DNA of 34,930 bases from Bacteroidales bacterium Bact_11. Lineage in GTDB: Bacteria > Bacteroidota > Bacteroidia > Bacteroidales > UBA932. Every line of letters begins with the position of its first letter. Positions within the stretch are counted from its first letter, which is position 1. The position numbers and the translations under genes are program-made. The stretch covers positions 1 through 34,930 of the forward strand of contig LUZC01000052.1 of NCBI GenBank assembly GCA_001603505.1. The letters run 5' to 3'. The notes beneath the pieces were generated by a model. The model saw only the letters and a list, made by a program, of their open reading frames with translations, was not told the DNA's origin and ran no database searches. Shown here piece by piece: positions 12,990 to 31,152 of this stretch.

Positions 12990-13002
12990 GCGTATTTTTT
13001 CA

Positions 13003-13010
13003 TAACTTTG
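13003..13010 (+). promoter_or_regulatory. Probable promoter -7 box for the fused oxidoreductase
   Basis: TAACTTTG (TAnnTTTG) lies 22 bases before the ATG at 13033. Confidence 0.6.
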
Positions 13011-13032
13011 TTGAGATAGATGCAAAACAACC

Positions 13033-16000
13033 ATGCATAAGATTACTTCCCATCCCATTCTGGATATCCCGCAGGAAGACCTGCACGAATTTCTCTACGA
13101 AGGACAGCCCGTCAAGGGCCAGAAAGGCCAGACCATCGCCGCCGCCCTGCACCAGGCCGGCTTCCCGGTGCACCACCACAGCCTCAAGGACCGCAAGCGC
13201 ACCATGGAGTGCGGCATCGGCAAATGCGGCGCCTGCGAGATGCTCGTCGACGGACACATCCGCCGCATCTGCATCACGAAAGTCGACGGCGTGCGCGAAG
13301 TGCGCCGCGTAGGCAAGGAGAGCTTCTCCGCCGTGGACAGCACCACCACCCGGCAGTCCGACCACAAGAAAGTGTACCGTACGGCCGTGGCCATCATCGG
13401 TGCGGGACCTGCAGGCCTTGCCGTCCGCGAGGAACTGAACAAGGCCGGCATCGACAACCTCGTGCTCGACAACAACGACTCCATCGGCGGGCAGTTCCAG
13501 ATGCAGACCCACCAGTTCTTCTTTTTTGAGAAAGAGCAGAAGTTCGGCGGGATGCGCGGTTTCGACATCGCCAGGACGCTGGCCGGCGATTCGCTCGAGG
13601 GCATCCTGCTCAACTGTGTGGTATGGGATATTCTCGAAGGCAAGCGGCTGGCAGTCAAGAATGTGGTGTCGCAGGAAATCTTCTACGTGGATGCCGAGCA
13701 GCTCGTCGTGGCGGCGGGCGCCCTGCCGTTCATGCCGGCTTTCAAGAACGACGACCTCCCGGGCGTCTTCACGGCTGCCGTGGTGCAGCGGATGATGAAC
13801 AAGGAGTTCACCCTTCTGGGCAAGAACATCTTGACGGTGGGCGCCGGCAACATCGGCTACCTCACCTCCTACCAAGCCATGCAGGCCGGGGCCAAGGTCA
13901 AGGCCATCATCGAGGCCATGCCCTTCGAGGGCGGCTTCCCCGTGCAGGCCAACCGCCTCCGCCGGCTCGGCGTGCCGATCATGACCTCCTACACGCTGGT
14001 CGAAGCCATCCCCAACGAAGACTGGAGCGGCGTCACCGGCGCCATCATCGCCAAATGCGAGAACTTCAAGCCGATTCCCGGCACCGAAGTGCGCATCGAA
14101 GGCATCGACTGCATCAACATCTGCACGGGCCTGCTGCCCGACAACCAGCTGCTGCGCAAGGGGGCCGAAGTGTTCGGTCGCGCCTGCCACGGCGTGGGTG
14201 ACGCCGTGCGCATCGGCGAGGGCACTTCTGCCGTGCTGCGCGGCCGCCAGTGCGCCTACGAGATCCAGCAGGAGCTCGGCCGCCGCATCGACTACAACGC
14301 CTATCTGGCCATCTCCAAGGAATACATCGACTCGCAGCAACGGCCGCACCGCGTGCTCGACGAGCCGCGCAAACCCTCGCCCGAGCGGATGCGCAAGGGC
14401 GGGTTCGTGATTGCCGACTGCCTCTACGGCTTCGCCTGCAACCCGTGTTCGTTCGCCTGCAAGCAGGGCGCCATCACCAAGAGTTCCACTTCCGTCACGC
14501 CGACCATCGTCTACGACAAGTGCATCGGCTGCATGGAATGCGTAGCCCACTGCCCGGGCCTGGCCATCTTCGGCTATCGGCCCGAGAAAGACGAACTTTT
14601 CCTCCCCATCGAATTCTCCGTGGAGAAAGGCGCGGAAGTGTTCCTGGTCGACGACAACGGCCAAAAGGTGGGCGAAGGCACCATCACGCGCATCATCAAG
14701 AAGCCCAACAAGACCAACATCGCCGTGGTCAAGGCCGAGAAGCTGTACGACGCCTCCGGCGACGAGGCGCTGCTGCAGGCCCGCGGCTTCATCGTAAAGG
14801 AGAACTACCCCGAGCCGCTCGAACTGATTCCCGACGAGCTCAACGACGACTTCACCTACGTCTGCCACTGCGAAGACGTACGGCTCCGCGACCTGCTCGC
14901 CCTGCTGAAGGGCCGCACGAGCATCACCGCGCAGGAACTCAAGCACATCTCCCGCCTCGGCATGGGTCCGTGTCGCGGTTCCCGCTGTCTCCCCCGCGCC
15001 AAGCAGGCCCTGCGCAACTACGGCATCGAGATCACGGGCGACTTCACGCCGCGCGGACCGATGGCCAACCTGGTGGAAATCGGCAACGTCATCAGCCCCG
15101 ACCGGAAGGTGGAACTGATTACCAATCCCAAGTGCACCGATGTAGAAATCAAACGCGTCGGCGCCTTCGTGGCCGGCGGCGGCATGGCGGGCACGGCCGT
15201 GTTCCGCTATCTGGCGGAAGCCGGGTTCAAGCCGGTGCTGATCAACAACGAGCACGGCAGTTCCTGGCGTTGCATCGCCGGCGGGCGTCCCGCTTTCTCG
15301 CTGCCCGCCCTGGCCGACATCGCCACGCACAACCTTGAGATTTTCCGCGAAGTCCAGGCCCTGCGCAACATCGACCTCAAGATGACGCGCTACGTCAATT
15401 TCGTGCACGATGACGCCACCTATCGTTCGCTCGACGCTTCCCGCGCCTGGTCGAACGCGTATATGGTGGACAAGAAGGATTTCGCCCGGGAAATCTCCCC
15501 GTATATCAATCCGAACCTCGACCTCTACAGTCACGCGCTCATCTCGCTCGACTGCTGGCAGGCCACCCCGGGCAAGACCATCGACACGGTGCGGCAGCTC
15601 GGCATCAAAGCCGGCGGCCAGGTATTCGAAGACACGGAGCTGATCCATGTAGAGAAGAACGGCGGGCTTTACCGGATGACGGTGCGCCAGCGCGACGGGC
15701 GCTATGTCCGCTACGAAAGCGAGATTTTCGTGAACGCGATGGGTGCCGGCGCCGAGAAGTTCGCCCGGCAGCTCGGCCTCGAGACGGGTCTCTATCCGGT
15801 GCGCCACCAGGCGTTCATCACGAAGCGCCTGCCGCTGATCGGCAAGGACGGCGATTCGCTCGACATGCTGATTGACCGCCGGCACTACAAGGGCTTCTCC
15901 GCGGTGTACGGACAGCAGCTGGCCGAAACGGGGCAGATCATCGGCTGCGCTTCCCCGGCGCAGGATGCGACAGATGTGGGCAAGAACCTGAAAATCAATA

Positions 16001-16281
16001 CGCAGGAGTTCCTGGAAATCAGTTCGGAGGTGTTCACGGAGTGGATTCCGCAGCTCAAGGGCATGAGTTTCCAGGCCACTTGGTGCGGCTACTACACCGA
16101 GCCGCGTTACATTGTCGATCCGGCCGCAGGCCTGTTCGTGGGCATGCGCGGCCACGGCTTCATGCTGTCGCAGTACATCGCGAAGATGTATGTGGATGCA
16201 CTGATGGGGCGTCCCGTCCCCGACTATTTCAAGGACATGGCCCTCGGCGGCCCCGGCCTCTCTGAGCAGGCTTTTAAATAA
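13033..16281 (+). CDS. Five-domain FAD/iron-sulfur amino-acid dehydrogenase-like fusion protein
   Basis: A 1082-residue cytoplasmic flavoprotein (no signal, no membrane helix). Domains in order: a [2Fe-2S] ferredoxin-like domain of the HcnA/SoxA N-terminal type with Cys60, 65, 68, 80; a pyridine-nucleotide-disulfide-type FAD domain with GAGPAG (123-128) and a second dinucleotide motif VGAGNIG (269-275); a two-cluster ferredoxin region with Cys463, 469, 472, 476 and CIGCMECVAHCP (Cys497, 500, 503, 507); a BFD-like [2Fe-2S] domain with Cys611, 613, 647, 652; and a DAO-type FAD domain starting at GGGMAG (715-720). Split versions of these domains form heteromeric dye-linked L-proline dehydrogenases, D-hydroxyproline dehydrogenase and HcnABC. 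The gene lies next to the pruA operon, so proline or hydroxyproline is my preferred substrate; sarcosine-, glycine- or opine-type substrates remain possible. Confidence 0.85.
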   Translation: MHKITSHPILDIPQEDLHEFLYEGQPVKGQKGQTIAAALHQAGFPVHHHSLKDRKRTMECGIGKCGACEMLVDGHIRRICITKVDGVREVRRVGKESFSAVDSTTTRQSDHKKVYRTAVAIIGAGPAGLAVREELNKAGIDNLVLDNNDSIGGQFQMQTHQFFFFEKEQKFGGMRGFDIARTLAGDSLEGILLNCVVWDILEGKRLAVKNVVSQEIFYVDAEQLVVAAGALPFMPAFKNDDLPGVFTAAVVQRMMNKEFTLLGKNILTVGAGNIGYLTSYQAMQAGAKVKAIIEAMPFEGGFPVQANRLRRLGVPIMTSYTLVEAIPNEDWSGVTGAIIAKCENFKPIPGTEVRIEGIDCINICTGLLPDNQLLRKGAEVFGRACHGVGDAVRIGEGTSAVLRGRQCAYEIQQELGRRIDYNAYLAISKEYIDSQQRPHRVLDEPRKPSPERMRKGGFVIADCLYGFACNPCSFACKQGAITKSSTSVTPTIVYDKCIGCMECVAHCPGLAIFGYRPEKDELFLPIEFSVEKGAEVFLVDDNGQKVGEGTITRIIKKPNKTNIAVVKAEKLYDASGDEALLQARGFIVKENYPEPLELIPDELNDDFTYVCHCEDVRLRDLLALLKGRTSITAQELKHISRLGMGPCRGSRCLPRAKQALRNYGIEITGDFTPRGPMANLVEIGNVISPDRKVELITNPKCTDVEIKRVGAFVAGGGMAGTAVFRYLAEAGFKPVLINNEHGSSWRCIAGGRPAFSLPALADIATHNLEIFREVQALRNIDLKMTRYVNFVHDDATYRSLDASRAWSNAYMVDKKDFAREISPYINPNLDLYSHALISLDCWQATPGKTIDTVRQLGIKAGGQVFEDTELIHVEKNGGLYRMTVRQRDGRYVRYESEIFVNAMGAGAEKFARQLGLETGLYPVRHQAFITKRLPLIGKDGDSLDMLIDRRHYKGFSAVYGQQLAETGQIIGCASPAQDATDVGKNLKINTQEFLEISSEVFTEWIPQLKGMSFQATWCGYYTEPRYIVDPAAGLFVGMRGHGFMLSQYIAKMYVDALMGRPVPDYFKDMALGGPGLSEQAFK

Positions 16282-16310
16282 GCTTGTGCTCTTGAGGCGC
16301 TCTGGGGCCG

Positions 16311-16417
16311 CTGCAACGGACGCAGCTGTGAAACAGCGACTTATGCAAACATGTCCCCCTCTATACGAGGGGGACATGTTTATGCAAGTGTCTGACAGTC
16401 AATTGCGTCCGTTGCAG
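16311..16417. repeat. Nested inverted repeat between convergent genes
   Basis: A perfect 14-base inverted repeat (16311-16324 and 16404-16417) encloses a central hairpin (16347-16381) and a small hairpin GCTGT-GAA-ACAGC (16325-16337). The 149-base gap between the oxidoreductase and transporter genes is filled largely by this element. It may serve both gene ends as a terminator, or be a miniature palindromic repeat; no target-site duplication is obvious. Confidence 0.75.
16347..16381. terminator. Bidirectional terminator-like hairpin
   Basis: A perfect 14-bp stem (arms 16347-16360 and 16368-16381), with AAA at one foot and TTT at the other and the loop CTATACG, lies between convergent genes. 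The T tail is short, so intrinsic termination is likely but not certain. Confidence 0.65.
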
Positions 16418-16430
16418 GGCGAGAAGAAGG

Positions 16431-17342
16431 TCAGCCGCGCTTGGCGGGTGCCAGTTGGGCGATGAGGACGGCAATGAAGACGAGCGCGGCTCCGAGGAGT
16501 TCGCGGGGCGTGAGCCGTTGGTGAAGGATGATCCAGCCGGCAAGGACGGCGAAGACGGATTCGAGGCTCATCAGGAGCGAGGCGAGCGTGGGATTGATTC
16601 CCTTCTGGCCGACAATCTGTAGCGTATAGCCAACGGCGCTCGAAAGAATGGCGGCGTAGAGCAGTGGAATCCACGCGTTCCATGATGTGAACGTCGCGGC
16701 CCAGGCCGGCAAGCCGACCGGAACGATATCCCGGAAAACCATCAGGACGGAGGCAAGCACGCCGCAGGTCAGGAACTGGATGGCGGCCAGTTTCAGCGCA
16801 TCGTATTGCGGTGAAAACCGGTCAACCGAAAGAATCTGAAAGGAGAAGGCAATGGCGCACAGCAATACCAGCAGATCGCTGAGCTGGATGGAAAGCGATT
16901 CGTCGATGCAGAGCAGATAGAGGCCAGCCAGCGCCACGGCAACGCCCAGCCACAGCAGCATGCTCGTCCTTTTGCGAAACACCAGCAGGTTGAGAATCGG
17001 CACAAGCACGATGTAGGTGGCCGTAATGAATCCGGCCTTACCGGCACTGGTGCCCAATTCGATGCCCTCCTGCTGCAGCAGACTGGCCAGGCAGAGGAGC
17101 GCGCCGCAGATGATGCCGGCACACCAAAGACCCTTCGGTCGCTCCGATGCAGGCCGCTTCCTTTCCGCCAGGGCGATAACCGGCCACAGGGCTGCGGCCG
17201 CCATCAGGAACCGCAACCCTGTGAAAGTGCAGGAGCCCATATACTGGCTCCCCTCGCTCTGCGCCACGAACGCAACACCCCAGATCAGGGCGGTCAGCGT
17301 CAGCAGCAGCGAGTTTCTCAACTGCCGGCGATCGGTAGCCAC
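16431..17342 (-). CDS. EamA/DMT-superfamily transporter
   Basis: A 303-residue inner-membrane protein with about ten hydrophobic helices in two similar halves, typical of EamA (drug/metabolite transporter) exporters. The start reads LLLTLTALIWGVAFVAQSEG, the usual first helix of the family, and the second-half repeat includes ILSSAVGYTLQIVGQKGINPTLASLLMSLESVFAVLAGWIILHQRLTPRELLGAALVFIAVLIAQ. Substrates in this family range from amino acids to drugs and cannot be read from sequence. It begins six bases after pruA, so the two are one operon and an amino-acid-related cargo is a reasonable guess. Confidence 0.88.
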   Translation of the reverse strand: MATDRRQLRNSLLLTLTALIWGVAFVAQSEGSQYMGSCTFTGLRFLMAAAALWPVIALAERKRPASERPKGLWCAGIICGALLCLASLLQQEGIELGTSAGKAGFITATYIVLVPILNLLVFRKRTSMLLWLGVAVALAGLYLLCIDESLSIQLSDLLVLLCAIAFSFQILSVDRFSPQYDALKLAAIQFLTCGVLASVLMVFRDIVPVGLPAWAATFTSWNAWIPLLYAAILSSAVGYTLQIVGQKGINPTLASLLMSLESVFAVLAGWIILHQRLTPRELLGAALVFIAVLIAQLAPAKRG

Positions 17343-17348
17343 TGCCGG

Positions 17349-18974
17349 CTACTTCATGTACGGATACTTGTAGCCGCGGGCCGGGACGAGCGTCTCCTTG
17401 ATGGCACGCGGAATGGCCCAGCGGATGAGGTTGAACTCGCCGCCGGCCTTGTCGTTGGTACCCGACTTGCGGGCTCCGCCGAACGGCTGCAGACCGACCA
17501 CGGCGCCCGTGGGCTTGTCGTTGATATAGAAATTGCCGGCCGCATAGCGCAGCTTGTCGGCCACGGCCTGCACCATCAGGCGGTCCTGCCCGAACACGGC
17601 GCCGGTCAGGCCGTACGGCGAGGTGGTGTCGCAAAGTTCGACGGCCTTGTCCATATCGGCATCTTCATACACAAAGACCGTAAGAACGGGACCGAAGATC
17701 TCCTCTTCCATGGTCTTGAAGTGCGGGTCGGTGGTCACGATAACCGTGGGCTCCACAAAGTAGCCCTTGCTCTTGTCGCAGCCGCCACCGATTGCGATCT
17801 CGGCATCGGGGCTGTTCTTCGCGTAGGCAATGTTGGCGGCGATGTTGTCGAACGAAGCTTCGTCGATCACGGCGTTGATGAAGTTGTCGGGGTCGCACAC
17901 GTCGCCCATCTTCACTTCAGCCGCGAAGGCTTTCATGCCTTCCAGCACCCTCAGCCACAGCGACTTCGGGACATACATGCGGGATGCAGCGGAGCACTTC
18001 TGGCCCTGGAACTCGAACGCACCGCAGAATGCAGCTGTCGCGACGTCCTCGGCCACGGCGCTCGGCGTGACGAAGATGAAGTCCTTGCCGCCCGTCTCGC
18101 CCACGAGACGCGGGTAGTTCAGATAGTTGTCGATGTTCTCGCCCACCTGGCGCCAGAGCGTGTTGAAGGTAGCGGAGGAACCGGTGAAATGGACGCCGGC
18201 CAGGTACTTCGAGGCGAAGATCTCCTTGCCGATGACGGAGCCCTGTCCGGGGATGAAGTTCACCACGCCGTCGGGCAGGCCGGCTTCCTTGTAGATCTTC
18301 ATCAGGTAGTAGTTCGAAAGAATGGCCGTGGTGGAAGGTTTCCACACCGTGACGTTGCCCATCAGCACCGGCGACATGTTGAGGTTCGAGGCGATGGAGG
18401 TGAAATTGAACGGCGTCAGCGCGAAGACGAAGCCTTCGAGGGCGCGGTATTCCACCGTGTTGATCTGACCCTTCGCGCTCTTGGGCTGGAAGCCGTAAAT
18501 CTCGGAGGCGAAATGGGCGTTGTAGCGCAGGAAGTCGATGAGCTCGCAGGTGGAGTCGATCTCGGCCTGGTAGAAGTTCTTGCTCTGGCCGAGCATCGTA
18601 GCGGCATTCATCAGGGCGCGGTACTTCGTGGAGATGAGTTCCGCGGCCTTCATCAGGATGGCGGCGCGCACCGTCCAGTCGGTTTCAGACCACTGCTTGT
18701 GGGCGGCCATGGCCGCGTCGATGGCCATACGGACCTCTGCGGGGCCTGCCTTGTGGTAGGTGGCCAGCACATGATGGTGGTCGTGCGGCATCACCACCTT
18801 GCCGGTGTTGCCGGTACGGACCTCTTTGCCGCCGATGATCAGCGGAATCTCGATTTCAATGGAACTCTGGCGTTTGAGCTCCTTTTCGAGGGCTTCGCGC
18901 TCGGGGGATCCTTTCAGATAGGTTTTCACCGGCTCATTGGCCGGATCGGGGAATGCGTAGATGGCGTCTCTCAT
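17349..18974 (-). CDS. pruA: L-glutamate gamma-semialdehyde (P5C) dehydrogenase
   Basis: PruA oxidises glutamate semialdehyde, formed from pyrroline-5-carboxylate, to glutamate with NAD+, the second step of proline breakdown. The 541-residue aldehyde dehydrogenase is of the long, mitochondrial ALDH4A1-like type. Visible features are TPFNFT (187-192), the NAD-site FTGSSATFNTLW (263-274), the general-base glutamate in LVGETGGKDF (Glu293) and the nucleophile in EFQGQKCSAASR (Cys327). The C-terminal YINDKPTGAVVGLQPFGGARKSGTNDKAGG is also diagnostic. It is the first gene of a two-gene operon with the DMT transporter. The upstream gap carries a promoter box at 19009-19016. The gene faces the large FAD oxidoreductase tail to tail. 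Confidence 0.97.
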   Translation of the reverse strand: MRDAIYAFPDPANEPVKTYLKGSPEREALEKELKRQSSIEIEIPLIIGGKEVRTGNTGKVVMPHDHHHVLATYHKAGPAEVRMAIDAAMAAHKQWSETDWTVRAAILMKAAELISTKYRALMNAATMLGQSKNFYQAEIDSTCELIDFLRYNAHFASEIYGFQPKSAKGQINTVEYRALEGFVFALTPFNFTSIASNLNMSPVLMGNVTVWKPSTTAILSNYYLMKIYKEAGLPDGVVNFIPGQGSVIGKEIFASKYLAGVHFTGSSATFNTLWRQVGENIDNYLNYPRLVGETGGKDFIFVTPSAVAEDVATAAFCGAFEFQGQKCSAASRMYVPKSLWLRVLEGMKAFAAEVKMGDVCDPDNFINAVIDEASFDNIAANIAYAKNSPDAEIAIGGGCDKSKGYFVEPTVIVTTDPHFKTMEEEIFGPVLTVFVYEDADMDKAVELCDTTSPYGLTGAVFGQDRLMVQAVADKLRYAAGNFYINDKPTGAVVGLQPFGGARKSGTNDKAGGEFNLIRWAIPRAIKETLVPARGYKYPYMK

Positions 18975-19717: not shown

Positions 19718-21646
19718 CTATAAATAATCGTTGAAATACATCGTGACCTTGTCCATCAGATGGACGCGGTCGACGCCGCGGACATTGTGCGGATGCGTCG
19801 GATACGGGAAATAGTCGACCTGCACCTTGTTCTTGATGCAAGCCTCCACGAAACTCAGACTGTGCTCCCACACCACCGTATCGTCGATGGCGCCCTGGCA
19901 GATCAGCAGCTTTGACCTGAGATCCTTTGCACGCGGTATCAGCGATGTCTTCGCGAATCCTTCCGGATTCGTGGTTTCCGTCTCCATGTAGCGCTCACCG
20001 TACATCACCTCATACCATTTCCAGTCGATCACCGGACCACCGGCCACCGCCACCTTGAAGACTTCCGGATAATTGACCGTCAGCGAGATCGTCATGAATC
20101 CGCCGTAACTCCAGCCATGTACGCCGATGCGGTCGCGATCCACCCAGTCGTGCGACATCAGCCATTCCATGCCGGCCATCTGGTCGGCCATCTCAGCCTG
20201 GCCGCACTGCCTGTGGATGGCCTTCTCGTATTCCGCGCCGCGGTTGGGCGTGCCGCGGCCGTCCATCGTGAACACCACGTAGCCATGCTGCGCCATATAA
20301 ATGTCCCAGCGGGACATGCCGCCCTGGAACACGTCGCGGATCAGCTGGGTGTGCGGACCGCCATAAACATAGAGGATTACCGGATATTTCTTGGAAGGAT
20401 CGAAATCGATGGGATACACCAGGCCGTAATGGTTATCGTACTTGCCGTCGGCGCTCTTGACCGTACCCATCTCGATCTTGCAGCTGGTGAGCAGCGGGCT
20501 CGGCTCGGGAGCGCGCCAGAGTTCCGTGAACTTTTTGCCGTCGGTTGTGCCCCAGCCCATCACGCGCGGTACGTCGAGCGACGACCACGTGTCGGCGAAA
20601 TACTTGCCGTCTTCCGAAATCTGGCAGTTGTGCCAGCCTTCTTCCCTGGTCAGGCGCAGTTTCTTGCCGGTCTTCACGTCCACCCTGAACAGATGGTTCT
20701 CCACAGGCGACACTTCGGCCGAATAATAAAAGACATAGCGACCGCGCTGGGCGACATACGAGCAATCCGCATCTACATCGGTCAGGCGCCTGGGCACAAA
20801 CTTCCCGCTCGCGGAGCACAAGTAGTAATTCTTGTATCCGTCTCGGTTGTCGGTGTAATAGAGGAACTGGTCAGGATCAGACTCGAGGAACACCAGCGGC
20901 TCCTGCGGCTCCACCCAGCGGCTGTTTTCCTCGGTCAGCAGCGTACCGAGACAACGGCCGTCCGCCGCGTCGTACACGTTCAGATGCATGTGCTTCTGCG
21001 GGCGATCGAGCACCTGGATGTAGATCCGGTCGCTGCCCGGTCCCCAGGCGATGTTGGTCAGGTAGCGCTCGTCGTTGAAATCGGTGACATCCATCCAGAC
21101 CGTAGTGCCGGAAGCGATGTCATAGACGCCCAGGGCGATGTGCTCGGAAGCCATGCCGTTCATCGGATAGCGGATTTCGCGAAGCGTGCCGGTGCGGGTG
21201 GTGATGTCGAGCAGCGGAAAAAGCGTCACAGCACGTTCATCCTTGCGGTAGAACGCGATCTTGGTGCTGTCGGGCGAGATAAAAATGCCGCCATTGATAC
21301 CGAATTCGTTGCGGCTCACGCTCGTACCACATACGATGCCGGGATCGGCATACGCCGTTATGGCGTGTTCCACGCCCGCCTTGTCTTTATAGTACAGGTT
21401 GTTTCCCTTGGTATAGGCCATCTGGTCCGGGCGCGGAAACCCCGGCCGTACGCCCTGCCCGGGCATCGCCCCGGGCTCGTCGAGGGCAATCACCGACTTG
21501 TCGCCGGTCCAGTGCCACATGGGCTGTTGCACCATCAGACCGCGTCCCAGCACGGCTTCTTCCATCGTCATAACCCTCCGCTCCTGGGCAAGGGCAAGCG
21601 GGCCGGTCAGCGCCAGCACCGTCAAAAGTACCAATATCCTTTTCAT
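19718..21646 (-). CDS. Exported S9B prolyl peptidase (DPP IV / prolyl tripeptidyl peptidase type)
   Basis: A 642-residue serine peptidase with a signal peptide (MKRILVLLTVLALTGPLALA), an N-terminal beta-propeller domain and a C-terminal alpha/beta-hydrolase. The catalytic serine lies in GWSYGG (Ser513), the aspartate in GAIDDTV (Asp588) and the histidine near DRVHL (His629). The segments NEFGINGGIFISPDSTKIAFYRKDE (about 113-137) and YVYGGPHTQLIRD (426-438) are typical of bacterial DPP IV-like enzymes, which remove X-Pro dipeptides or longer prolyl fragments. It probably acts in the periplasm. It is somewhat shorter than the roughly 720 residues common for DPP IV. No convincing promoter box was found before it. 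Proximity to pruA suggests proline-peptide use. Confidence 0.92.
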   Translation of the reverse strand: MKRILVLLTVLALTGPLALAQERRVMTMEEAVLGRGLMVQQPMWHWTGDKSVIALDEPGAMPGQGVRPGFPRPDQMAYTKGNNLYYKDKAGVEHAITAYADPGIVCGTSVSRNEFGINGGIFISPDSTKIAFYRKDERAVTLFPLLDITTRTGTLREIRYPMNGMASEHIALGVYDIASGTTVWMDVTDFNDERYLTNIAWGPGSDRIYIQVLDRPQKHMHLNVYDAADGRCLGTLLTEENSRWVEPQEPLVFLESDPDQFLYYTDNRDGYKNYYLCSASGKFVPRRLTDVDADCSYVAQRGRYVFYYSAEVSPVENHLFRVDVKTGKKLRLTREEGWHNCQISEDGKYFADTWSSLDVPRVMGWGTTDGKKFTELWRAPEPSPLLTSCKIEMGTVKSADGKYDNHYGLVYPIDFDPSKKYPVILYVYGGPHTQLIRDVFQGGMSRWDIYMAQHGYVVFTMDGRGTPNRGAEYEKAIHRQCGQAEMADQMAGMEWLMSHDWVDRDRIGVHGWSYGGFMTISLTVNYPEVFKVAVAGGPVIDWKWYEVMYGERYMETETTNPEGFAKTSLIPRAKDLRSKLLICQGAIDDTVVWEHSLSFVEACIKNKVQVDYFPYPTHPHNVRGVDRVHLMDKVTMYFNDYL

Positions 21647-26209: not shown

Positions 26210-27967
26210 ATGAAGAAGCCACTTCTCTCCGTCGTTCTCGCCCTTACGAGTACCCTGCCTGCTTTCGGGCAGCATCCCCAACCTTCGTACAGCTATTTGG
26301 AAATCTTCGACGTTGAGACCGGCACGCATCGGGTGGTGAAAGAGTTTCCTTATGTGATTGAGGCGCCCAACTGGACGCCGGACGGAAAGTGGCTGGTGGT
26401 AAACAAGGACGGACGGTTGTTCAAGCTCGCTGCCGACGGTTCTTCGGATTTGCTGGAAATCCAGACCGGCGCCATCACCCAGTGCAACAACGACCATGTG
26501 GTTACGGCTGACGGCCGTTGGATCGGCCTCAGCAGCAATGACCCCGCCAACAAGCGGTCCTACAATTCCTATGTATATGTGGTTCCTTTCGAGGGCGGCG
26601 AACCTCGCCGGATTACTCCGCTGGGGCCCAGCTACCTGCACGGAATCAGCCCCGACGGCAAACTGGCCGCCTACTGCGCTTTCCGCGGGCCGAAAATGGA
26701 GCAGGATGTCTACGTGATGCCGCTCAAGGGCGGCGAGGAAAAACGTCTCACCGATGCTCCCGGCCTGGATGACGGCCCTGAATTCAGCCCGGACGGCAAA
26801 ACCATCTGGTTCAACAGTGTCCGTACCGGCCGCATGCAGGTGTGGAAAATGAAAGCCAATGGCAAGGACCAGACCCAGATGACCTTCGACACGGACATGA
26901 ATTCCTGGTTCCCCCACATTTCACCCGACGGGAAAAAGGTGGTCTATATCGCTTATCACGACTATGAGATCGATCCGGGTTCCCACATCGCCGACCTCAA
27001 CGTGCAGCTCCGGATGATTCCCGCGACGGGGGGTGATCCGCGTGTGCTGCTGGAGTTTTTCGGCGGACAGGGAAGCCTGAACGTCAATTCCTGGAGCCCG
27101 GACAGCAGGCAGTTCGCCTTCGTGCGCTACCGCCTCGCCGAAGAAATCACGGCACCCCGCAAGGAAATGGCGGTACAGCTGTATTCCGTACGCTCACTGC
27201 TTGGCACGCCGGAACTGTTTGCCCGCAACCATCCCTATATGTTATCCCGCCTTTCGGAGATGGGTTACACGGCTTCAGAAGCAGCCAGCTACGAGAACGG
27301 CCGGTTCTCCGGACTGGCGCCGGAGGCGTTTGCGCGCATCCTGAAAGAGGCGGGGCTGCCGCTCATCTCTTCCCATACGACCCGTCCCCTTACCCGCGAA
27401 GAACTGACCTCCGGAGACTACTCCCAGGCGCTGGCCTGGTGGGATGCCTGTATCACCGCCCATAAGGCAGCCGGCATCCCCCGTCTGGTGATGTCCTGGT
27501 CCCAGCCGCTGCAAATGAAAGCCGAGCTGGAGACGATGGCCGCTTACCTGAACGCCATCGGCGCGAAGTGCCGGGAAGCGGGCCTCCGCTTCGGCTATCA
27601 CAGTCACAGCCATGAGTTCCAGAAAGTGGAAGACACCACGATGATGGACTGGTTCATCGCCCATACCGACCCGGAGAATGTCTTCTTCGAAATGGATGTC
27701 TATTGGGCCGTCGTGGGCGGGGCCAGCCCCGTGGAATACATGAACAACTATGCCGGCCGCTTCGAACTCCTTCACATCAAGGACAAACACGAGATCGGCC
27801 AGAGCGGTATGGTGGGCTTCGACGCCATCTTCCGCAATATGCCGAAGGCCGGCACCCGCGCTTTCGTGGTGGAGTTGGAAGAAGCCAGCACGCCCAATAT
27901 CCTCAAAGGGCTCCGCGAAAGCGCCCTCTACCTGCGGAATTTGCCGCAGGTTCCCGGCGCACATTAA
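26210..27967 (+). CDS. TolB-like beta-propeller fused to sugar-phosphate isomerase/epimerase domain
   Basis: A 585-residue exported protein. The signal peptide is MKKPLLSVVLALTSTLPAFG. Residues about 25-312 form a TolB/PD40-type propeller with repeated SPDGK-like blades (WTPDGKWLVV 55-64, ISPDGKLAAY 146-155, FSPDGKTIWF 192-201, ISPDGKKVVY 237-246, WSPDSRQFAF 295-304). Residues about 317-585 form a xylose-isomerase-like TIM barrel starting MAVQLYSVRSLLGTP, with likely metal ligands in GYHSHSHEF (462-470), FFEMDVYW (492-499) and LLHIKDKHE (520-528). Related barrels of Bacteroidota usually stand alone. The linker is only a few residues, and no stop or shift is seen. The substrate is unknown. It converges with ccsA seven bases away. 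Confidence 0.88.
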   Translation: MKKPLLSVVLALTSTLPAFGQHPQPSYSYLEIFDVETGTHRVVKEFPYVIEAPNWTPDGKWLVVNKDGRLFKLAADGSSDLLEIQTGAITQCNNDHVVTADGRWIGLSSNDPANKRSYNSYVYVVPFEGGEPRRITPLGPSYLHGISPDGKLAAYCAFRGPKMEQDVYVMPLKGGEEKRLTDAPGLDDGPEFSPDGKTIWFNSVRTGRMQVWKMKANGKDQTQMTFDTDMNSWFPHISPDGKKVVYIAYHDYEIDPGSHIADLNVQLRMIPATGGDPRVLLEFFGGQGSLNVNSWSPDSRQFAFVRYRLAEEITAPRKEMAVQLYSVRSLLGTPELFARNHPYMLSRLSEMGYTASEAASYENGRFSGLAPEAFARILKEAGLPLISSHTTRPLTREELTSGDYSQALAWWDACITAHKAAGIPRLVMSWSQPLQMKAELETMAAYLNAIGAKCREAGLRFGYHSHSHEFQKVEDTTMMDWFIAHTDPENVFFEMDVYWAVVGGASPVEYMNNYAGRFELLHIKDKHEIGQSGMVGFDAIFRNMPKAGTRAFVVELEEASTPNILKGLRESALYLRNLPQVPGAH

Positions 27968-27974
27968 AGCACCG

Positions 27975-28760
27975 TCATTTCACGTTGTAGGTGTGGATGG
28001 ACAACCCCCGCGCGGAAGGCAGGTAGTTGATGCCCCACCAGCAGATCTGCAGGCACACGAAACACAGAAGCAGGAGGATGCAGGCCGTCTTCCATTTGCC
28101 CGGACGCGCCTTGCGCAGATGCAGGTACACCAGGTAGCAGAGCCAGGTGGCGGCGGCCCAGGTTTCCTTCGGGTCCCAGGACCAGTAATTGCCCCAGGCC
28201 TCTTTGGCCCACATCGCGCCGAACAGCATCCCGAAGGTCAGGAAGGCCAGGCCCACATAAACCAGATTATCAGTAAGATTGATTTCTTTCTCCGTTGTCT
28301 TGTCCTTCCGGATGAGCATATAAAGCGCCATCACCGTTGCCGCGCCCAGCAGCGCATAGGAGAACATATACACAATCACGTGCGGCGCGAACCACGGACT
28401 CTGCAGCGCCGGCATCAGGCCCTTGGAGTGGATCTCCGGCTTGAACAGATTCACGCAGATGAACACAAGGGCGAGCAGTGTGCTGAAACTCAGAATCCAC
28501 TTGTAGCGCCACCGGCCGTAAACGATGATACCTGCCACGGGCAGGAAGAACGAGTACCAGAGACGCGTTTCCCCCATCGTCCGAAGCGGCGGGCGCTCCA
28601 GCGAAATCCACATGCCCAGGATAAAAGTGAAAAAGACGGCGATGCCGGCCAGTGTGCAGGCATACACCAGCGTACGGCGTTCCTTCCAGGCGAAGAAAGC
28701 GCCTGCCACCCAAAGGAGCACAGCTCCCAAAGCAAACCAGACAAAGGAATCCCAACTCAT
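27975..28760 (-). CDS. ccsA: Cytochrome c assembly protein CcsA/ResC
   Basis: This inner-membrane protein works with ResB/CcsB to carry haem out and attach it to apocytochromes c (system II). The 261-residue protein has about eight membrane helices and the tryptophan-rich WWD motif WAKEAWGNYWSWDPKETW (184-201), which holds haem. Likely haem-ligand histidines are in SPWFAPHVIVY (His127) and VYLHL (His214). Its ATG overlaps the resB stop by four bases. It is last in nrfH-nrfA-resB-ccsA, so its main client is probably NrfHA. Confidence 0.94.
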   Translation of the reverse strand: MSWDSFVWFALGAVLLWVAGAFFAWKERRTLVYACTLAGIAVFFTFILGMWISLERPPLRTMGETRLWYSFFLPVAGIIVYGRWRYKWILSFSTLLALVFICVNLFKPEIHSKGLMPALQSPWFAPHVIVYMFSYALLGAATVMALYMLIRKDKTTEKEINLTDNLVYVGLAFLTFGMLFGAMWAKEAWGNYWSWDPKETWAAATWLCYLVYLHLRKARPGKWKTACILLLLCFVCLQICWWGINYLPSARGLSIHTYNVK

Positions 28761-29646: not shown

Positions 29647-31152
29647 TCAATATGCAAGCAGTTTTTCGTTCTCCTGGGCCGAGGCAAGCCACTGGGGAAC
29701 AATCTCATCCATAAACCGGGCCTTCTTCTCGCGCATCCCCTTCATATCCAGGCCGATAAATGCCTGAGCCTTGGCCTTGGTGGAAATGTCGGGCATCGGC
29801 ACGTCACCGGTATAGCCGTGCTTGGCCAGAACCTTTGAAATCTGAAGGCGGGCTTCCTGTGCATAGTTGATGCCATTGCCCATCAGGCGGAGCACTTCCT
29901 GCGGCGCATGGAAGGAGGCACCGTGTGATGCGACGGCATAGTCCCAGCGCCACTGGCTCTTGCGGATGTTCTGGAGAGCATCCTTCATCTCGGAGTCGGT
30001 TGCGCCCTTATCCCATGCGAACTTGGCCTCGATATGGGCCTTGGCCAGGATATCCTCCAACTGGTCGCGCACCTCGAGGCATTTTTCCTGACGCTCATAT
30101 ACGTTCTGGCGCAGGGTCTCTTCGCTTTCGCGGTGGCAATTAAGGCATGTGCGGTCCATTTTCGCCAGCGGGCTCTGGATGTGGTGGTCGGAGTATTTCA
30201 CGCCACCGTCGGCCACGTAAGGCATATGGCAGTCAGCGCAGGTGACGCCCCGCTGACCGTGGATGCCCTGCAGGGAGGTTTCATAGCCGGGATGCTGGGC
30301 TTTGAGGATGGGCGCCTTGGAAAGCGCGTGCGTGTAATCGGCATAGCCCATTTCATCGTAGTACTTTTCAGCGTCTTCCAGCGTAAGGCCGTATTTCCAG
30401 GGGAAAGTGAGGTACTGATCCTTTTCGGGCGTTTCAGGGTAATCGTGGAAATAATACTCCACGTGGCACTGGGCACAGACCAGCGAACGCATTTCGTTGT
30501 GCGTAGCCTTGTCCACATCCTTGCCCATGCTGGCAAAAGCTTCGCGCAGGGCAGGACGGGAAATATGCAGATCCATCGTCGCACTGTCGTGGCAGTCCGA
30601 GCAGCCGATGGGATTCACCACCTCGGCACCCCACTTGGCCCAATTGGCCTTGTAGAACTCGGCCGGACCTACTTCTTCCATCAGGCGCGGCACATCCGGT
30701 CCCTTGCAGGTCCAGCAGGTACCCGGCTGATTGGATCCGGTCGTGGGTGTATCGGGCCAGCCGGTACGGAGGATTTCGCGATGGTCTTCCAGGGCGTGGA
30801 AATGGCCGCGGGGCGAATTGTAGTCCCAGGAGAAGGCGTAGCCGGCCCAGAGGACGACCATATTCGGACGCTCTTCCAGGACGTCCTGAATGTCGGACGA
30901 CATATACTTGGAACGGAAATCCGTCTCCTCGGTAGCCTTCCAGGTTTCATATTCGCGCGGAAAATCGCTCTTGAACTTCTGGTTCTGCGCCACGATACCC
31001 TGCATCGGGTTCTTGCGGTTGTTGAAGACGCTCGCCACCTCGGCGCGGCGTTCCATCAAGGCGGAAACCACGAGGCCGAGGAGGAAGACGACGACCATGG
31101 CGCCGCCGAAAATCAGCCAGCTGTGCAAGGGTTTGAGTTTGTTTTCGCTCAT
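29647..31152 (-). CDS. nrfA: Ammonia-forming cytochrome c nitrite reductase
   Basis: NrfA reduces nitrite to ammonium with six electrons in the periplasm. The 501-residue protein has an N-terminal signal-anchor-like helix (about 12-33) and five haem motifs: the active-site CWTCK (146-150), in which lysine replaces histidine as ligand, and CSDCH (184-188), CAQCH (226-230), CADCH (305-309) and CLNCH (336-340). Conserved active-site surroundings are visible: NSPRGHFHALED (112-123), VEYYF (231-235) and AQHPGYE (285-291). It lies 13 bases after nrfH, which supplies quinol electrons. The length fits the family. Confidence 0.97.
   Translation of the reverse strand: MSENKLKPLHSWLIFGGAMVVVFLLGLVVSALMERRAEVASVFNNRKNPMQGIVAQNQKFKSDFPREYETWKATEETDFRSKYMSSDIQDVLEERPNMVVLWAGYAFSWDYNSPRGHFHALEDHREILRTGWPDTPTTGSNQPGTCWTCKGPDVPRLMEEVGPAEFYKANWAKWGAEVVNPIGCSDCHDSATMDLHISRPALREAFASMGKDVDKATHNEMRSLVCAQCHVEYYFHDYPETPEKDQYLTFPWKYGLTLEDAEKYYDEMGYADYTHALSKAPILKAQHPGYETSLQGIHGQRGVTCADCHMPYVADGGVKYSDHHIQSPLAKMDRTCLNCHRESEETLRQNVYERQEKCLEVRDQLEDILAKAHIEAKFAWDKGATDSEMKDALQNIRKSQWRWDYAVASHGASFHAPQEVLRLMGNGINYAQEARLQISKVLAKHGYTGDVPMPDISTKAKAQAFIGLDMKGMREKKARFMDEIVPQWLASAQENEKLLAY

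Follow-up and report, generated by a model that had tools for sequence, protein, structure and literature searches.

The closest described relatives of the enzyme discussed here are multi-subunit amino acid dehydrogenases that combine flavins with iron-sulfur clusters. The archaeal dye-linked L-proline dehydrogenase of the alpha-beta-gamma-delta type is made from pdhA, pdhF, pdhX and pdhB (PMC4364671), and opine dehydrogenase, D-hydroxyproline dehydrogenase and hydrogen cyanide (HCN) synthase are described as flavin-containing alpha4 beta4 gamma4 complexes (PMC4575208). We analyzed a 34,930-nucleotide stretch of DNA from Bacteroidales bacterium Bact_11 (contig LUZC01000052.1, positions 1 to 34,930; hereafter the window), in which a single gene on the forward strand, at 13033..16281 (+), joins five parts of such enzymes in one protein of 1082 amino acids (aa), here called the fusion. 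We tentatively favor the view, with slightly less than an even chance of being right, that the fusion is a single-chain dehydrogenase for a secondary-amine amino acid, with L-proline as the likeliest substrate; on this view it sends electrons through its clusters and leaves its product to PruA to be made into glutamate.

A preliminary description of the window had read this gene as an all-in-one version of the multi-subunit layout. That reading holds: the open reading frame, Pfam searches and an alignment confirm all five parts in one chain, together with the cysteines named for them. The N-terminal [2Fe-2S] domain (Fer2_4, aa 20-86, 13090..13290, +) contains Cys60/65/68/80 and precedes a Pyr_redox_2 domain (aa 118-376, 13384..14160, +) with two GxGxxG motifs and an invariant Glu294. 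These are followed by an eight-cysteine region for two [4Fe-4S] clusters (aa 463-507, 14419..14553, +), with cysteines 463/469/472/476/497/500/503/507 spaced as C-x5-C-x2-C-x3-C and C-x2-C-x2-C-x3-C-P and with Fer4-type Pfam matches between aa 468 and 512, and by a BFD-like [2Fe-2S] region (aa 609-660, 14857..15012, +) with Cys611/613/647/652. The C-terminal part, identified by Pfam and by sequence and fold comparison, is the DAO catalytic FAD domain (PF01266, 111 bits; aa 713-1055, 15169..16197, +), whose GxGxxG motif (G715-x-G717-x2-G720) is invariant. The Pfam search of this protein (P0001) gave 14 families at E <= 0.001, and PF01619, the family of classical proline dehydrogenase (PRODH), was not among them. 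None of the 25 NCBIfam models listed (the best 25 of 49 matching) approached its cut-off, including those of the sarcosine oxidase alpha subunit (TIGR01372, 64.9 bits against a cut-off of 1164) and the glycine oxidase ThiO (TIGR02352, 31.5 against 250.8).

The cluster ligands are conserved throughout the family. In an alignment of 101 fusion proteins, 15 of the 16 cysteines never vary, and the remaining one, Cys80, is present in 100. The gamma-type motif C-x4-C-x2-C-x11~12-C is thereby present, with Cys60/65/68 in all 101 proteins and Cys80 in all but one. The four cysteines of the motif C-x-C...C-x4-C in the BFD-like region are likewise invariant, with a middle spacing of 33; the Fer2_BFD match there is weak in the window protein (E 2.7e-4, 21.7 bits, below the cut-off of 26) and exceeds that cut-off in a relative, L059 (33.7 bits). 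Because full-length relatives are 53-94% identical to the window protein, we regard the domain order as a stable property of the family and not as an accident of assembly. A single open frame of more than 1000 aa was found at all 97 loci surveyed, which represent 59 families; G094, G184 and G216, in which the fusion is split across two contigs, were excluded. An antisense frame of 1125 aa (13000-16377, -) spans the whole fusion, and long overlaps of frames on both strands are frequent in the window. We take this frame to be a by-product, since the forward frame holds the Pfam domains and has the full-length relatives.

Among solved structures, the catalytic domain is closest, by sequence and by predicted fold, to the beta subunit of Pyrococcus L-proline dehydrogenase (1y56_B). 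That subunit is the best PDB sequence match of the DAO domain (E 3e-16), and glycine oxidase is second (4e-4). When a profile of 18 relatives was compared with the PDB, only 1y56_B, the alpha chain 1y56_A and SoxA fell below 1e-10. A structure model made with 101 sequences (mean pLDDT 87.3, pTM 0.85), which superseded one made with 18 sequences (pLDDT 74.8), gave 1y56_B at rank 1 in Foldseek (E 1.5e-23), with 1y56_A and SoxA also listed. VIA-align matched 1y56_B with Z 40.1, a root-mean-square deviation (rmsd) of 2.3, 352 aligned residues and 22% identity. VIA-align rows mostly cover model residues 704-1082 only, so for the N-terminal part the relationship is supported by Foldseek and HMMER instead. 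His925-Gln926, in the context R/K-H-Q, aligns with H225-Q of 1y56_B, and Tyr959 aligns with Y251; His925 and Tyr959 are invariant in all 101 proteins. The HQ pair is also found in dimethylglycine dehydrogenase, and the same place is occupied by K-G-E in glycine oxidase and by R-R-S in D-arginine dehydrogenase. The modeled fold appears to be that of an amine-oxidizing DAO enzyme, most like the heteromeric kind, and sequence comparison adds a lean toward L-proline dehydrogenase.

The second line of evidence is the association of the fusion with pruA in its own genus. In the window, pruA (17349..18974, -; TIGR01236, 757.6 bits against a cut-off of 613.6) encodes L-glutamate gamma-semialdehyde dehydrogenase, the likely pathway partner. 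The gene had been placed directly beside the fusion; its identity is confirmed, but it is one gene off, with an EamA/DMT-type transporter gene between the two (16431..17342, -; profile match). A search of the same genome for PF01619, recommended in the preliminary description, found no match in an assembly that is 80.8% complete, and none was found in the 37 genomes of the genus, 25 of which are less than 90% complete. The fusion is present in 28 of these 37 genomes (complete in 26, divided between two contigs in one, and in one a 122-aa piece at a contig end). pruA is present in 27 of the 28 and in none of the nine genomes lacking the fusion; the 28th (G018) shows a 56-aa piece of pruA where a contig ends, separated from the fusion by 68 bp. 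In all 17 pairs on the same contig, the gap between the genes is 79-3497 bp, and 10 further pairs are on different contigs. The relative placement varies: pruA lies downstream of the fusion in opposite orientation in 10 of the 17 and in the same orientation in four, and it lies upstream, in opposite orientation, in the other three. In L046 and L092 (81-82% identity), pruA is near the fusion without the rest of the neighborhood; in relatives below 80% identity, no pruA was found in the fetched stretch around the fusion. Two genomes outside the genus, G057 and G269, both of one second family, have pruA at distances of 4.5 and 5.9 kb from the fusion.

Another gene of this neighborhood fits a supply of proline peptides. 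A DPP-IV-like peptidase (DPPIV_N and Peptidase_S9 by Pfam; 19718..21646, -), a possible source of such peptides, is encoded on the far side of pruA, and a DPP-IV gene is also near pruA in four other genomes of the genus (L045, L086, L098 and L047, the last from the same genome as L091). No such gene was found in the stretches fetched for L046, L088, L089, L090 and L092.

From these data we infer a substrate, an electron route with its order, and an acceptor. One polypeptide would perform the work of multi-subunit flavin and iron-sulfur amino acid dehydrogenases. The C-terminal DAO domain would bind FAD and oxidize the C-N bond of a secondary-amine amino acid to an imine, which for L-proline would be delta1-pyrroline-5-carboxylate (P5C), in equilibrium with glutamate semialdehyde. 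Electrons could then leave by way of the BFD-type [2Fe-2S] cluster, the two [4Fe-4S] clusters, the Pyr_redox flavoprotein domain and the N-terminal [2Fe-2S] cluster to a carrier, and PruA would convert the product to glutamate. Given the redox potentials, proline oxidation alone can hardly reduce NAD or ferredoxin, and menaquinone or another higher-potential carrier is therefore the better guess. Judged by its motifs, the second GxGxxG with invariant Glu294, the protein may also use NAD(H), as a bound cofactor or as the acceptor. The window contains nrfA, for an ammonia-forming cytochrome c nitrite reductase (29647-31152, -; profile match), and a gene for a cytochrome c assembly protein (27975-28760, -; Pfam), which suggests quinone-linked respiration. 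Near the latter, and as an observation in its own right, a frame at 26210-27967 (+) encodes PD40 beta-propeller repeats together with a TIM barrel of the xylose-isomerase-like kind (AP_endonuc_2), which struck us as an unusual combination.

Across the order, the fusion and pruA also occur together. Using P0001 as the query, we found the fusion in 100 of 247 sampled genomes. pruA (counted at E <= 1e-120) is present in 85 of these 100 and in 65 of the 147 others (odds ratio 7.1, p 4e-11; this and the following order-wide statistics, the logistic fit included, ignore kinship among genomes). The association is present among genomes with hutH, which served as our control for amino acid catabolism (odds ratio 3.4, p 8e-4), and among genomes with both hutH and PRODH, where pruA accompanies the fusion in 62 of 66 genomes and is found in 49 of 71 without it (odds ratio 7.0, p 2e-4). 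In a joint logistic fit for pruA over the 247 genomes, the coefficients were 1.7 for the fusion (bootstrap 1.0-2.6), 1.5 for PRODH and 1.7 for hutH. There is also some proximity to PRODH itself: PF01619 is within 1 kb of the fusion at five of the 97 loci, from four families, and is divergent in four of the five (L061:10140-11051, L062:10623-11534, and G166, G239 and G267). Four of these neighbors are short and lower-scoring (123-131 bits), and that of G267 is of the long type and higher-scoring (250 bits).

Several observations weigh against L-proline as the substrate or against a specific tie to pruA. In the order-wide sample, 15 of the 100 fusion genomes have no pruA. hutH is found in 95 of the 100 and in 95 of the 147 others (odds ratio 10.4, p 4e-9), and the association of the fusion with pruA is not clearly stronger than that with hutH. 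The hutH threshold (E <= 1e-60) counts 190 of the 247 genomes, of which 128 reach the curated cut-off, so the control includes hutH-like genes. Of the 97 loci, only three have pruA in the flanks that were fetched. The commonest neighbors at the 97 loci are housekeeping genes, and this synteny was all that came to the top when we looked for a conserved functional partner across the 59 families. Downstream these are clusters for yceD (the top cluster, 23 loci in 16 families), plsX and fabH, and upstream a GT5 gene, a DUF4270 gene and a SIS/glutamine amidotransferase gene, each cluster being identified through one member and by length. Such neighbors carry no information on the substrate; the stable genomic place suggests vertical inheritance. 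Within the genus, the neighborhood of pruA is mostly shared synteny (ftsK, rmlD, rmlC, the fusion, pruA, a tmk-like gene and, in some genomes, DPP4), and the closest relatives differ by local inversions. Moreover, hutH is present in 14 of 16 fusion-positive and two of seven fusion-negative genomes (23 of the 37 were examined), and ornithine aminotransferase in 25 of 28 and two of nine. The aminotransferase could be another source of substrate for pruA in those 25 genomes. Because hutH and ornithine aminotransferase follow the fusion too, the presence of pruA alone does not demand a proline dehydrogenase, and we count mainly the genomic proximity as specific.

The catalytic domain adds further reservations of this kind. 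Heterotetrameric sarcosine oxidase beta is the runner-up in VIA-align (Z 38.9, rmsd 2.4, 358 aligned residues, 15% identity), so the proposed comparison by structure prediction did place the L-proline dehydrogenase beta subunit first, but with a competitor of nearly equal score; since the two Z values differ by only 1.2, the fold leaves the substrate unfixed. A 102-aa piece around the HQ pair best matches dimethylglycine dehydrogenase (E 0.013), then D-arginine dehydrogenase (1.2), and this piece alone did not match 1y56_B at E <= 10. Finally, the Arg-x-Trp of beta subunits is described as a putative FMN site (PMC4575208). At that site, placed by alignment with 1y56_B, the fusion proteins have A-x-W (97) or S-x-W (4) in all 101 cases, and the FMN reported for PDH1 therefore need not be present.

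The stronger suggestion of the preliminary description, that the fusion takes the place of PRODH, does not survive as a general statement. PF01619 is present in 67 of the 100 fusion genomes and in 81 of the 147 genomes without the fusion, and it is an immediate neighbor at the five loci described above. The recommended test, co-occurrence with pruA in Bacteroidales lacking PRODH, proved not to be specific, as hutH does about equally well. In the subset that the replacement idea needs, the hutH-positive genomes without PRODH, pruA is found in 19 of 29 fusion genomes and 11 of 24 others, which is not significant (odds ratio 2.25, p 0.17). We reject simple replacement of PRODH across the order, given the frequency of PRODH in fusion genomes and a pruA link that is matched by hutH. 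The fusion is probably an enzyme for proline or a close analog; it does not substitute for PRODH in general.

A different amine or amino acid is a doubtful alternative, although the one that survives best. The substrate could be sarcosine, dimethylglycine, glycine, a D-amino acid, an opine-like conjugate or another secondary amine, and the proximity to proline genes would then be incidental. The reservations above lend themselves to this idea: DAO folds with other amine substrates score nearly as well in VIA-align, the isolated HQ piece prefers dimethylglycine dehydrogenase, the commonest neighborhood in the order is housekeeping, and hutH co-occurs about as strongly as pruA. In addition, HCN synthase, opine dehydrogenase and D-hydroxyproline dehydrogenase are among the subunit relatives, and one beta subtype near the archaeal L-proline dehydrogenase is reported to be inactive on L-proline (PMC4575208). 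However, the match of the whole DAO domain to 1y56_B is about 12 orders of magnitude above that to the next PDB family, and the HQ pair is unlike the pattern of glycine oxidase or D-arginine dehydrogenase. A rough reckoning from genome size suggests that chance placement would not so often put pruA close to the fusion, as in two families, or PRODH beside it, as in four.

We think it unlikely that the substrate is trans-4-hydroxy-L-proline, as released from collagen or plant cell wall proteins. The fusion would convert it to 3-hydroxy-pyrroline-5-carboxylate, PruA would make 4-hydroxyglutamate, and PRODH, where present, would take proline. This scheme would explain the coexistence and adjacency of PRODH together with the linkage to pruA, and hydroxyproline dehydrogenases belong to the same fold class (PMC4575208). 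The known bacterial hydroxyproline enzyme described for this class acts on the D-epimer (PMC4575208), and an epimerase would thus be expected. However, strong PF05544 matches (E < 1e-60) are present in six of the 100 fusion genomes and 12 of the 147 others, and in none of the contigs of the window's own genome; no hydroxyproline-specific gene was recognized among the identified neighbor clusters. We reject a D-hydroxyproline route because PF05544 is not enriched in fusion genomes. The scarcity of PF05544 leaves room for direct oxidation of the L-form.

It is very unlikely that the fusion is a redox-balancing, partly P5C- or imine-reducing or bifurcating enzyme that moves electrons between an amine/imine couple, NAD(H) and a low-potential carrier: the second GxGxxG with the invariant acidic Glu294 (GxGxxG with an acidic residue being an NAD-binding pattern), the eight-cysteine ferredoxin region and a Foldseek match at rank 44 to a chain of the bifurcating enzyme Nfn-ABC (9bov_A) speak for it, but this match (query TM-score 0.23, rmsd 40) is at best one of single domains, no partner gene stands out at the 97 loci, and the alpha subunit of sarcosine oxidase binds NAD and is not known to use it in catalysis.

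Whatever its substrate, the fusion represents a real, uncharacterized protein family, seen here in one order only. That order has a prominent place in the gut and the rumen. Of 296 genomes sampled across the phylum, one, the window's own, has the fusion (E <= 1e-60); among the 21 genomes of this sample that are listed, three are of the order, two of them without the gene. Named genome contigs contain at least 537 confirmed relatives. The best 80 of these are from Bacteroidales or other Bacteroidota, with one "uncultured bacterium"; Odoribacter laneus, Candidatus Coprenecus and Candidatus Limimorpha are among them. The copy in Parabacteroides distasonis is 62% identical and annotated simply as "FAD-dependent oxidoreductase". 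Beyond the Parabacteroides fusion, plasmid relatives of the DAO part are weak (three records, 24-27% identity). No paper on a one-chain enzyme was recognized in a literature search of titles and abstract openings that left most subscription journals outside. We speculate, with less conviction than for L-proline as the substrate, that such proteins form a widespread family of L-proline dehydrogenases with two flavins and four clusters in a single chain and no relation to PRODH, and that, delivering electrons to an anaerobic carrier, they are the sole proline oxidizers of entire clades of Bacteroidales from gut and rumen. If the fusion is a proline dehydrogenase, then genome models that rely on PF01619 overlook the oxidation of proline in these bacteria, and a single chain would offer a tractable model of electron transfer in heteromeric amino acid dehydrogenases.

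The known systems differ in how much they share with the fusion. Classical PRODH and PutA have in common with it the proposed reaction alone; PF01619 is missing from the fusion. Heterotetrameric sarcosine oxidase shares a SoxA-like N-terminal part and a SoxB-like DAO fold, but the fusion has no aminomethyltransferase-type domain among its 14 Pfam matches and scores far below the TIGR01372 cut-off. Opine dehydrogenase, D-hydroxyproline dehydrogenase and HCN synthase share the DAO part, the ADP-binding motifs, the gamma-type C-x4-C-x2-C-x11-C and, putatively, a BFD-type cluster; unlike the fusion, they consist of separate subunits, and no 2x[4Fe-4S] part figures in their description (PMC4575208). 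The middle spacing of the BFD-type motif also differs, being x33 in the fusion and x15~20 in alpha subunits of the opine dehydrogenase type (C-x-C-x15~20-C-x4-C; PMC4575208).

The archaeal L-proline dehydrogenase (Pyrococcus alpha4beta4, 1y56) shares a catalytic DAO subunit (beta) and a Pyr_redox subunit (alpha) with an N-terminal beta-grasp part, and the H-Q and Tyr of its beta chain are kept in the fusion. In contrast, the fusion is one chain with an internal 2x[4Fe-4S] region and without Arg-x-Trp, and it retains the N-terminal cysteines that are described as lost in 1y56_A (PMC1949818). Because Arg-x-Trp and separate subunits are missing, we do not file the fusion under the archaeal L-proline dehydrogenases. 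By analogy, the best reading is that it works like them. Within the heteromeric DAO-type amino acid dehydrogenases, it is a variant that is new in its single chain and its internal 2x[4Fe-4S] region.

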